A DNA stretch of 64,000 nt. It comes from Caldifarciminota bacterium. Its GTDB lineage: Bacteria; Hydrothermota; Hydrothermia; LBFQ01; DSFT01. The notes under the pieces are model-generated. The model was not told the origin of the DNA. It did not search any database and saw nothing but the letters and a program-made list of their open reading frames with translations. The translations under genes were made by a program, and so were the position numbers. Where the stretch lies: positions 36,035 to 100,034 of the forward strand of contig JANXBH010000004.1 in the NCBI GenBank assembly GCA_025060695.1, in the 5' to 3' direction. Positions 35,909 to 44,898 of the stretch are shown piece by piece. Each line of letters begins with the position of its first letter. Positions within the stretch are counted from its first letter, which is position 1.

Positions 35909-35924
35909 CTTTAAAATTTTAAAG
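35909..35924. promoter_or_regulatory. Perfect palindromic bidirectional promoter between tRNA-Leu and the small ORF
   Basis: CTTTAAAATTTTAAAG is a perfect 16-bp palindrome with a -10-like TAAAAT on each strand (35912-35917 plus, 35916-35921 minus). The tRNA begins 10 nt after the plus-strand hexamer. Confidence 0.55.
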
Positions 35925-35927
35925 CAT

Positions 35928-36010
35928 GCGGGAGTGGCGGAATTGGCAGACGCGCCAGATTTAGGATCTGGTCCCGATAAGGGGTGAGGGTTCAACTCCC
36001 TCCTCCCGCA
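35928..36010 (+). tRNA. tRNA-Leu (anticodon TAG)
   Basis: 83-nt class II tRNA. Acceptor GCGGGAG pairs with CTCCCGC; discriminator A at 36010. The anticodon stem CCAGA/TCTGG encloses the loop TTTAGGA, giving anticodon TAG. A long variable arm and a T-arm with GGTTCAACTCC are present. CCA is not encoded. A protein gene starts one nucleotide after the discriminator base. Confidence 0.96.
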
Positions 36011-36011
36011 T

Positions 36012-36635
36012 CTGAAACTTGTAATTTTTGACTTTGATGGGACTATATTTGACACATCACTTGGTTTAACACTCTCTATAAACGAACTATTAAGAAGATA
36101 TAAACTGCTTGAACTAAACTCTAAAGAAGTAAAAAAGATTATCGGTGGCGGTATAGAACTAACCTTAAGAAGGATTTTTAATGAAAACTTCAAAGAGGAA
36201 TTAATAGAAGAATTTAATGAAGTTTACAAGAATTTCATGCATGAAGGACTTAAACCATACGACAATGTAATTAATGTGATAGAAAAACTTAAAAAAGAGA
36301 AAGGTTTCATTGTAGTAATTTATACAAACAAATCAAAAAACTTTGTAATTGATATCTTAAGAAAGTTCAACATATTAGAATTTTTTGATGAAATTATAAC
36401 TATTGATGATGGATTTAAAAAACCAGATAAGGAAGCTATTGACTATTTAGAAAGGACATACAATATAAAAAAAGAGAATATGTATATTATCGGAGATAGT
36501 GAGTTTGACATACAAACAGCAAAAATTTCAGGTATTAAGAGTATTTTCGTAAATTGGGGATTTGGAGAAAATATTGGAGCAGACTTTGAAGTTAATGAAC
36601 CTTATGAGATATACGAAATACTAAATTCAAAATAG
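36012..36635 (+). CDS. HAD-family phosphatase (phosphoglycolate-phosphatase-like), non-canonical CTG start
   Basis: 207 residues from a CTG at 36012. Motif I DFDGT at 7-11, motif II threonine in VIYTNKS, motif III lysine in FKKPDKEA and motif IV IIGDSEFD make a complete HAD hydrolase with a helical cap, like Gph/PGP. In this frame there is no ATG, GTG or TTG between a TGA inside the tRNA and 36237, and starting at 36237 would delete motif I and the cap. CTG gives the textbook opening MKLVIFDFDGT; ATT at 36024 is a less likely alternative. Only 1 nt separates it from tRNA-Leu, implying a tRNA-mRNA co-transcript. Overlaps convergent holA by 44 bp. Confidence 0.85.
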   Translation: MKLVIFDFDGTIFDTSLGLTLSINELLRRYKLLELNSKEVKKIIGGGIELTLRRIFNENFKEELIEEFNEVYKNFMHEGLKPYDNVINVIEKLKKEKGFIVVIYTNKSKNFVIDILRKFNILEFFDEIITIDDGFKKPDKEAIDYLERTYNIKKENMYIIGDSEFDIQTAKISGIKSIFVNWGFGENIGADFEVNEPYEIYEILNSK

Positions 36636-37518
36636 AAATTTTATCTCTATGAAAGGTTTTATAACTTCTATCAACTAAGAGTGATAAGTACAATAGCTCA
36701 ATTAAATCATTTTTTTCTAATTTTTTGGTAATTTTTGATAGGGAATGTTTAAAAAGCGAAGGCTTTACTAATTCATACGTGTTCTCTGCTATATATATCA
36801 TGTTCAATATTGTCCTTAATATGTACATATTAAGCTCAAGAGGAGCTATTTCTTTTACTAATTTTAAGATTTCATCAAAATTGCCCTTTTCTAAGTAGTT
36901 TATAAAACTATAGACTTTCAGATTTTCACTCTTAGATAGAATAAGTTCTAAGTTCTCAGAACCTGCTAAGTAAATTTTTTCTACTTCATTATTGCAGCTT
37001 GATAGGTCCTTCGGTAAATTTCTAAACAAGTAATCCATTTGCTCTGCACTTAGCATTAGATTTAACTTATTTAACCTTTTAATTATCCACTTCTTTTTTT
37101 CCCCTTCAGTTAGATACGGCATTAAAACTAACGTGTATTTATCTGATTTTGACAAGTTCTTCCCAATAAATTCTTCCACAACTTTATTCAATTTCTTTAA
37201 GTCTTCTTCATAAAAATCTAAGCTTGAATATAAAATCACCTTTTTATTTTTTAATTTTAGAATTTCTTTCCACTTTTTTAATTTTTCAAAATTCCTAATA
37301 ATTGCCAATTTCCCCTTTTTACTAAATAAGCTACTCTGATTAAAAAACTCAACTATTTTATCTATACTTATCTCATCACCCCAAAATGTCCTCGTTTCAT
37401 AGTCTATAAATTTTTCTCTAATAGCTCTTATTGGATAATCCTCAGGTCCAATTAGAATAAAGACTTCCTCGTCCTTATATTTATCAAATTTCTTTAAAAA
37501 TTCAATATGAGTTAGCAT
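36592..37518 (-). CDS. holA: DNA polymerase III delta subunit
   Basis: Clamp-loader subunit that opens the beta sliding clamp. 308 residues of the HolA type: N-terminal VFILIGPEDYPIRAIREKFI, the SLFSKKGKLAIIRNFEKLK block and a C-terminal helical collar (LELNMYILRTILNMIYIAE). Divergent at sequence level, as usual for HolA, but the segment order is clear. Start overlaps the LVIVD gene by 17 bp. Last gene of the minus-strand run. Confidence 0.82.
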   Translation of the reverse strand: MLTHIEFLKKFDKYKDEEVFILIGPEDYPIRAIREKFIDYETRTFWGDEISIDKIVEFFNQSSLFSKKGKLAIIRNFEKLKKWKEILKLKNKKVILYSSLDFYEEDLKKLNKVVEEFIGKNLSKSDKYTLVLMPYLTEGEKKKWIIKRLNKLNLMLSAEQMDYLFRNLPKDLSSCNNEVEKIYLAGSENLELILSKSENLKVYSFINYLEKGNFDEILKLVKEIAPLELNMYILRTILNMIYIAENTYELVKPSLFKHSLSKITKKLEKNDLIELLYLSLLVDRSYKTFHRDKISILNLVFRISHKVH

Positions 37519-43733: not shown

Positions 43734-43739
43734 ATTATA
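43734..43739 (-). promoter_or_regulatory. -10 element (TATAAT) of parA
   Basis: Exact consensus TATAAT on the minus strand, 7 nt before the parA ATG. This case supports reading the TAAAAT hexamers elsewhere as -10 elements. It overlaps the last codons of the upstream glycosyltransferase gene. Confidence 0.68.
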
Positions 43740-44823
43740 AAGCTATAGTTTCATGTGAAACCATTTCTTTTATTTTTAAAAAATTCATACTTTCTTTTTG
43801 ATATGACAAATTAGACATAAAATAGTTAAGAACTGATGGATTTTGTATAATAAACTCTGTATATCTAACGAGTTGTTTAAAATTTTTCGCAATAAATCCA
43901 AGACCATGCTCTTTTATAAATCTTTCATTACCTTCCTCTTGACCAGGCAAGCTTTTATAGTAAATCGCAGGAGTTTTAGTATATATTAGTTCAGTTAAAT
44001 TTAAACCACCTGCTTTTGCAACTGAAAAATCACACAAAAACATAAGTTTGTGAATATCTTCAGTAAAGCCAAACAGTTTAAAATCATATGTATTTAAATC
44101 TATAAAAACCTCCTGTAGCTTTTCGTAGTTCTTCTCATTCCTTCCTGCAATAACAAGAAAGTATAATTTTTTACTAAACATTTTTATATATTTTATTGCA
44201 TCCCTTAGTGGTAGAACACTATTAGAACCAAGATTTAATAGAACTATTAAATTTTTAGTATGAATATTAAACTCCCTTCTTAGTGCATTTTTGTCTATTT
44301 CTTCTAAAAATCCTTTTCTTAAAGGAATTCCAGTAATCATGTAGTTTGATGATTTAAGGTCTTTGACAGAATACTCAGAGGGCAAAAAATACATATCTAC
44401 AAAGTTATTTATCCAAATTGGATGAACTTCATAATCTGTTATACATACGAATAGTTTTGTACTTTTATTTTCAAGTTTATACTTTGCCCCATAGAGTGTA
44501 GAGAGAAAATGTGTAGAAATTATAATGTCTGGTCTATAATTTTCAAGTATACTATATACTTTCTTATTTATGAACGAAGTAAGTATAGATTTTATTATAT
44601 TCAGCCTTGTAATGGGATTATAATAAATTAGTCTCCATAGAAAGTGCGAATGCTTGCTCATCCAGATATAAAACTTCGATGTTATTTTCTCAATATATCC
44701 ACCTTTTTCAACAATATCCAATAACAAAACATCATTACTATTCCCTATCATCTGTTCTATTGCTTTTGATGCAATTAAGTGCCCTGTCCCGTAATTTGCA
44801 GTGATAATAAGAATTTTCTTCAA
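43735..44823 (-). CDS. MGDG-synthase-like (GT28) glycosyltransferase
   Basis: 362 residues from a TTG at 44823 giving MKKILIITANYGTGHLIAS, the expected opening of monogalactosyldiacylglycerol-synthase/UgtP-type enzymes. Other marks: DIIISTHFLS, VCITDYEVHPIW, MITGIPLRKGF and the donor-site region SVAKAGGLNLTELIYTKTP. Likely glycosylates a membrane lipid. A longer open frame starts inside the tRNA but reads the tRNA sequence. The TTG lies 2 nt after the tRNA-Val 3' end. Its final codons encode the parS-like site. Confidence 0.83.
   Translation of the reverse strand: MKKILIITANYGTGHLIASKAIEQMIGNSNDVLLLDIVEKGGYIEKITSKFYIWMSKHSHFLWRLIYYNPITRLNIIKSILTSFINKKVYSILENYRPDIIISTHFLSTLYGAKYKLENKSTKLFVCITDYEVHPIWINNFVDMYFLPSEYSVKDLKSSNYMITGIPLRKGFLEEIDKNALRREFNIHTKNLIVLLNLGSNSVLPLRDAIKYIKMFSKKLYFLVIAGRNEKNYEKLQEVFIDLNTYDFKLFGFTEDIHKLMFLCDFSVAKAGGLNLTELIYTKTPAIYYKSLPGQEEGNERFIKEHGLGFIAKNFKQLVRYTEFIIQNPSVLNYFMSNLSYQKESMNFLKIKEMVSHETIAL
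43747..43762. promoter_or_regulatory. parS-like centromere site
   Basis: AGTTTCATGTGAAACC matches 13 of 16 positions of the consensus TGTTTCACGTGAAACA. It lies 21-36 bp upstream of the parA ATG, within the C-terminal codons of the glycosyltransferase and in the position of the parA -35 region, so bound ParB would be expected to repress parA. Confidence 0.78.
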
Positions 44824-44825
44824 AA

Positions 44826-44898
44826 TGGGCAGTGGAGGATTCGAACCTCCGACCTCTCGCATGTCAAACGAGCGCTCTAACCCCTGAGCTAACTGCCC
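44826..44898 (-). tRNA. tRNA-Val (anticodon GAC)
   Basis: 73-nt tRNA. Acceptor GGGCAGT/ACTGCCC, discriminator A at 44826, anticodon loop TTGACAT giving GAC, T-loop TTCGAAT with the GGAGG/CCTCC stem. CCA not encoded. Two bases after it the glycosyltransferase TTG begins. Confidence 0.96.

Follow-up and report, generated by a model that had tools for sequence, protein, structure and literature searches.

A tRNA-Leu gene abutting a HAD phosphatase gene, and a genome-wide layout suggestive of tRNA punctuation, in a Caldifarciminota bacterium

The window analysed, a stretch of 64,000 nucleotides from the 1.5-Mb metagenome-assembled genome (G000) of an uncultured WOR-3 bacterium, carries on its forward strand a tRNA-Leu gene with the anticodon UAG at 35928–36010 (Rfam RF00005, 59 bits with Infernal). 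The gene was also detected by ARAGORN, whose span (35927–36012) is shifted by one base pair with respect to that of Rfam/Infernal. No CCA is encoded in this tRNA. Its discriminator, A36010, is followed by a spacer of 1 nt (T36011) and, on the same strand, by the gene of a PGP-like HAD-family phosphatase (36012–36635), with CTG at 36012–36014 as start and TAG at 36633–36635 as stop; the sequence 3' of the discriminator reads T, then CTG AAA CTT GTA ATT TTT GAC TTT GAT GGG ACT. The first-pass annotation had placed the discriminator at 36010 and the HAD frame from CTG 36012, and both positions were confirmed by the Rfam/Infernal placement and by the sequence. Its claim that no ATG, GTG or TTG occurs in the frame from a TGA inside the tRNA to position 36237 held as well: that TGA (35985–35987) lies nine codons upstream of the CTG, and the earliest such codon after it is ATG 36237. 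A start inside tRNA-Leu was ruled out by this in-frame stop, and for the other tRNA-linked genes described below it was ruled out by stops at varying places.

The product read from the CTG has 207 aa (LKLVIFDFDGT...) and contains a HAD_2 domain (Pfam E=2.2e-38; 132.6 bits against a gathering score of 23.8) with the catalytic residues expected (D7, D9, K137, D162, and D166). The motifs DFDGT, KPD, and GDS were conserved and their residues were invariant across three orthologs, as were K2, L3, and F6–T11. The domain and these motifs are common to HAD-IA phosphoglycolate phosphatase-type enzymes. The score obtained with the phosphoglycolate phosphatase equivalog model was 129.7 bits, under its curated cut-off of 225, and since the protein stayed under the curated cut-off of every specific HAD-IA model, no substrate was assigned. 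Comparison with the congener G001 gave a pN (0.22) far below pS (0.69), which indicated that the frame is a real, constrained gene and ruled out a pseudogene. The 3' ends of the HAD gene and of a convergent holA-like gene (36592–37518, minus strand) overlap by 44 nt (36592–36635), and the same overlap was observed in G001 (L005, 2081–2124).

The relatives used for comparison were the congener G001, G002 from a sister genus, G005 from another family within the order, G018 from the same class, and G097 from the same phylum. The tRNA-Leu(UAG)–HAD pair is kept in three genomes of the family, the orthologous tRNA preceding the HAD gene on both L005 and L006, and the HAD proteins of G001 and G002 are 64% and 43% identical to that of the window. 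An assembly chimera was ruled out, as three genomes share the tRNA–HAD order and two share the convergent holA-like gene. In G001, the tRNA is followed by TT (2 nt) and then by ATG AAA CTT CTT; in G002, a 19-nt spacer, TTTCCTCTAAACTTTCCCC, precedes the ATG. The CTG of the window aligns with ATG in both. Conservation of the 1-nt spacing, which the first-pass annotation had put forward as a check, was not found among the orthologous loci (1 nt in G000, 2 nt in G001, and 19 nt in G002). Neither was its counterexample, a relative with ATG and a normal spacer, encountered in G001, where the ATG stands behind only 2 nt. The spacer of G002 contains a −10 element, TAAACT, 6 nt before the ATG, and constitutes the HAD gene's own leaderless promoter. 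The gene is, hence, tRNA-abutting in G000 and G001 and promoter-leaderless in G002, and it appears, from this comparison, to have switched between the two states. Since the G002 ortholog has its leaderless promoter in the spacer, the 3' end of the tRNA seems to take the place of a transcription start.

The arrangement at tRNA-Leu is genome-wide and not local to the HAD locus. The 3' junctions of 41 tRNAs were inspected in each of G000 and G001; full reading extended to about 413 kb of G000 (about 28%), the remainder of that genome was covered by searches only, and similar parts of the relatives were analysed. In G000, a same-strand protein gene lies 0–9 nt after 25 of the 34 cluster-terminal tRNAs. 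In 21 of the 34, a frame with ATG or TTG as its first codon and a length of 48 codons or more starts 0–10 nt past the discriminator, and in four further cases (Leu-UAG, Tyr, His, and Val-UAC) the coding frame runs from CTG or ATA. As a control, frames diverging 0–10 nt from the 5' side of the same 34 tRNAs were sought, and none was found (0/34). Because the tRNA-Leu–HAD pair is kept in three genomes and 25/34 terminal tRNAs are alike, the layout is beyond chance. Furthermore, in alignments of G000 with G001, coding conservation begins at or beside the tRNA-linked start codons, and the profile HMMs, where available, agree on the N-termini: RdgB (from CTG), L31, L33, malate dehydrogenase, and the HMG-CoA lyase family (from TTG). 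Housekeeping genes are among those linked, such as rpmE, rpmG, rplS, ndk, and a PRPP synthetase gene, and murA, cmk, and purB in G005.

A second example lies in the window itself, where a tRNA-Val(GAC) gene (44826–44898, minus strand; ARAGORN and Rfam) is followed after 2 nt by the TTG start of a glycolipid glycosyltransferase-like gene (43738–44823, minus strand). Its product (MKKILI...) resembles diglucosyl diacylglycerol synthase (NCBIfam NF010135, 4e-54, below the cut-off), and the same TTG and spacing were found in G001. An exception was observed at tRNA-Ile in both species (region of L067:11769, and L167), where a hairpin-like leader (CCACAAAGTCGTGG and similar) is followed by a Shine-Dalgarno (SD)-led gene.

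A −10-like promoter element, TTTAAAATT, is present at 35910–35918 (plus strand), 9 nt before the 5' end of tRNA-Leu, and the same element precedes tRNA 5' ends mostly by 6–16 nt, with a mode of 9. It also occurs before protein genes: TTTAAAATT showed a sharp peak 5–9 nt before ATG starts in G000 and G001, with fewer cases in G002, in keeping with the TAnnnT placement at this distance from ATG that marks leaderless promoters. As 5–9 nt is the spacing expected of a −10 box whose transcript starts at the start codon, this class was taken as one of leaderless promoters. SD-led genes are present as well, and the 16S rRNA ends with the usual CACCTCCTTT. Several tRNAs have as their promoter element CTTTAAAATTTTAAAG (window 35909–35924; L002 near 1598–1613), a 16-nt sequence that is perfectly palindromic and may act on both strands.

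The tRNA-linked starts showed neither of these signals. No −10-like element was detected in the 24 nt before any of the 25 linked starts of G000 or in the 24 G001 rows, which agrees with the earlier claim that the junction is too tight to hold a promoter or ribosome-binding site. No convincing SD was found among the 25 G000 starts; GGAG was present only at tRNA-Cys, and belongs to the tRNA itself. When the gap from tRNA to start was 11–40 nt (n = 22), 15 spacers contained a −10-like element, 13 of these 5–10 nt before the start, and the rest had an SD (three) or neither (four, one of which crosses a neighbouring tRNA).

A bias of start codons was observed in the tRNA-abutting genes. In G000, 13 of 25 of these genes have a start with a pyrimidine first (TTG or CTG), compared with 12 of 97 promoter-leaderless genes (p=6e-5) and 4 of 39 SD-led genes (p=4e-4). 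The enrichment was replicated in G001 (11/23 against 8/105 and 3/30; p=2e-5), in a count that includes one duplicated locus twice and in which some of the TTG starts, assigned from a single species, are less secure. CTG starts were restricted to the tRNA-linked class, and those after tRNA-Tyr and tRNA-His, as well as ATA after tRNA-Val(UAC), were kept in both G000 and G001. The ATA is the apparent start of a glycosyltransferase gene (L068:15764–16426, plus strand, IKYIIIVPTYNE; L165:17868–18530, plus strand, IKYLIIIPTYNE); this codon is an extremely rare start in bacteria. RNA polymerase favours a purine as first base, and the pyrimidine bias fits an escape of processed 5' ends from this preference. 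It also fits an alternative in which weak starts damp the translation driven by strong tRNA promoters. The purine limit alone was insufficient as an explanation, because SD-led genes also have few pyrimidine-first starts.

Beyond the family, the layout was found in G005 at 16 of 28 tRNAs against 4 of 25 in the control (ATG only, 7 against 1), these counts being of mechanical frames, with ten genes checked by profile. The linked genes of G005 comprise those of MurA (TTG, +2), L33 (+3), L28 (+3), Cmk (GTG, +4), a glutamate racemase homologue (TTG, +6), PurB (+7), PdxT (+9), MnmA (+9), and a GatC-like frame (TTG, +0). The layout was weak in G002 (8/33 against 4/32) and not above controls in G018 (2/28) and G097 (3/31). 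Given its presence in G005 and the control-level counts in G018 and G097, the layout seems to be a trait of this order rather than of the phylum, on the few lineages sampled. A control set of diverse bacteria comprised only 14 tRNAs and is weak.

The enzymes of tRNA processing were also searched for. Most tRNA genes examined have no encoded CCA. An exonuclease trimming from the 3' end would degrade the mRNA, and CCA is generally not encoded, so an endonuclease is needed at the tRNA 3' end if the linked genes are expressed. At the curated cut-off, RNase Z was matched in 14/14 control genomes and in none of six WOR-3 genomes (G000–G003, G005, and G018); the candidates retrieved were generic MBL-fold proteins only. 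A search of the family for RNase E/G found none. The enzyme that would cut on the 3' side may be either a divergent form of RNase Z or a different nuclease. For the 5' side, HARP-type RNase P (TIGR03875) was present in each of the four family genomes, three of which were searched for class-A RNase P RNA with none detected; G005 has the class-A RNA and no HARP. The type of RNase P was apparently swapped within one order (HARP in G000, G001, and G002, against RNA in G005; L327–L331). The HARP gene shares a unit with tRNA-Lys and its abutting lipoprotein-like gene. Its frame is split at the same place, a run of nine A, in G000 (C22, L331:1515–2038, minus strand) and G001 (C105, L330:1506–2030, minus strand), with the sequences CTAAAAAAAAATC and TTAAAAAAAAACC, and is a single frame in G002; this pattern points to frameshifting of the programmed kind or to slippage during transcription.

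At the level of sequence, the analysis established the layout together with how widely it occurs and is conserved, gaps too small for a promoter, terminator, or ribosome-binding site, a class of leaderless promoters, and a bias in start codons. Taken together, these make a bacterial tRNA punctuation, in which tRNA 3' maturation would release leaderless mRNAs, the best reading and a probable one. At the HAD locus, the AT-rich promoter before tRNA-Leu would drive the tRNA and the HAD gene as one transcription unit; RNase P, probably of the protein-only HARP type, would mature the tRNA 5' end, and an endonuclease would cut after A36010, at +1, to leave an mRNA beginning U-CUG-AAA. A ribosome accepting leaderless mRNA would then start at the CUG and yield Met-KLVIFDFDGT, with MKLVIFDFDGTIFDTSLGLTLSINELLR as the predicted N-terminal peptide. 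Throughout the genome, cleavage at the tRNA 3' end would make the linked mRNAs begin 0–9 nt from the start codon, as befits leaderless mRNAs.

The mechanism anticipated in the first-pass annotation gained support, in each part, from comparative sequence evidence. A single transcript for tRNA and mRNA is consistent with a gap of 0–9 nt, which fits neither promoter nor terminator, and with TTTAAAATT just upstream of most tRNAs. The proposed leaderless mRNA is in line with the clear leaderless-promoter class of the genome and with the G002 HAD ortholog, which lies 6 nt after such a −10. The CUG start is favoured by the ATG of G001 at that codon and by the CTG starts kept in two species after tRNA-Tyr and tRNA-His. 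On the other hand, CUG initiates leaderless mRNAs poorly in E. coli according to a review (PMC9031893), which counts against the model, as does the failure to find RNase Z in the six WOR-3 genomes or RNase E/G in the family; the 3' endonuclease is the weakest element of the mechanism.

Several other explanations were weighed against tRNA punctuation. If the metagenome assembly carried a wrong base at 36012 and ATG were the true start, the tRNA–mRNA layout would still stand and only the non-AUG start would fall. Such an error would agree with the ATG at the aligned codon of G001, and this CTG is known from one metagenome assembly. Nevertheless, the CTG starts at tRNA-Tyr and tRNA-His and the ATA at tRNA-Val(UAC) are kept in two independently assembled species, so non-AUG starts do occur in just this setting, and such an error was judged quite unlikely. 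Even harder to credit is a shortened HAD protein starting at ATT 36024 or ATG 36237, the next possible initiators, of which the latter is the first standard start: either would lose the first strand or all of motif I (DFDGT), despite the invariance of K2, L3, and F6–T11, and this reading was held to be extremely improbable.

A promoter for the HAD gene within the tRNA gene would place the mRNA 5' end by transcription and not by processing. The leaderless class puts its −10 only 5–9 nt before the start, and the G002 spacer has one. However, the GC-rich T-arm and acceptor stem fill the 24 nt preceding the start, where no −10-like element is present here or in any of the 25 linked cases, and the pyrimidine-first starts differ from those of promoter-made leaderless genes; an internal promoter was, hence, considered very unlikely. 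Passive genome compaction, after which read-through RNA would be cut but poorly translated, or else translated by reinitiation without special provision, is unlikely too. Compaction is suggested by the gaps between coding sequences, which are short as well (median 8 nt; 53% of 10 nt or less, overlaps included), and by the failure to find a nuclease for the 3' cut. Yet the linked housekeeping genes must be translated, there is no translation upstream of a tRNA-linked start to couple to, and a distinct spectrum of start codons is unexpected from compaction alone.

In animal mitochondria, tRNAs abut protein genes, and RNase P and RNase Z/ELAC2, by cutting the tRNAs out, set the mRNA 5' ends; the mRNAs are leaderless or nearly so, and non-AUG starts occur. 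The genome-wide abutment of tRNAs and protein genes (25/34, control 0/34) is like this punctuation. The bacterial case differs in being chromosomal, with individual tRNA promoters, ordinary leaderless promoters and SD-led genes alongside, a predicted cleavage, and no recognisable RNase Z. It would work like tRNA punctuation but was not classed as a member, because excision by RNase Z found no counterpart in the searches made. In E. coli, the tRNA–mRNA cotranscripts tyrU-tufB and secG-leuU are known; these are a few operons in which the protein genes retain normal leaders and SD sites. The proposed joining of tRNA and mRNA in one unit, parted by tRNA processing, resembles them, whereas the gap of 0–9 nt and a layout that is the rule in G000 do not. 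Bacterial leaderless mRNAs are well known (PMC9031893, PMC4633059). As in those of Deinococcus, mycobacteria, and Streptomyces, the start would lie at or near the 5' end without an SD, and promoter-made mRNAs of this kind are common in G000; unlike them, the linked mRNAs would owe their 5' ends to tRNA processing, and their starts are shifted to TTG, CTG, and ATA. No bacterial genome with tRNA-punctuated leaderless mRNAs was found in the open-access literature (subscription papers and preprints lay outside the scope). Checked by term, papers on Propionibacterium acnes and Streptomyces treat leaderless mRNAs and tRNA 3' processing separately, and in a mycobacterial paper tRNA punctuation occurs only within a reference on mitochondria. 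Leaderless translation and tRNA punctuation are known separately, the latter from organelles.

A broader proposal, to which we give even chances, is that of an order-wide third mode of expression beside leaderless promoters and SD. An unrecognised endonuclease would make leaderless mRNAs for essential genes, and their starts, chosen by position, would drift to UUG, CUG, and AUA, as no purine is required at such 5' ends for transcription initiation. Genes of this kind will be overlooked or truncated by standard gene callers, since there is no nearby ATG, GTG, or TTG and the start touches the tRNA. If true, the system would be a natural one in which to ask what a leaderless ribosome needs of the first codon, and it would imply a precise tRNA 3' endonuclease yet to be recognised. 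Moreover, directly abutting and often essential protein genes on most tRNA units would tie protein expression to tRNA supply in these bacteria.
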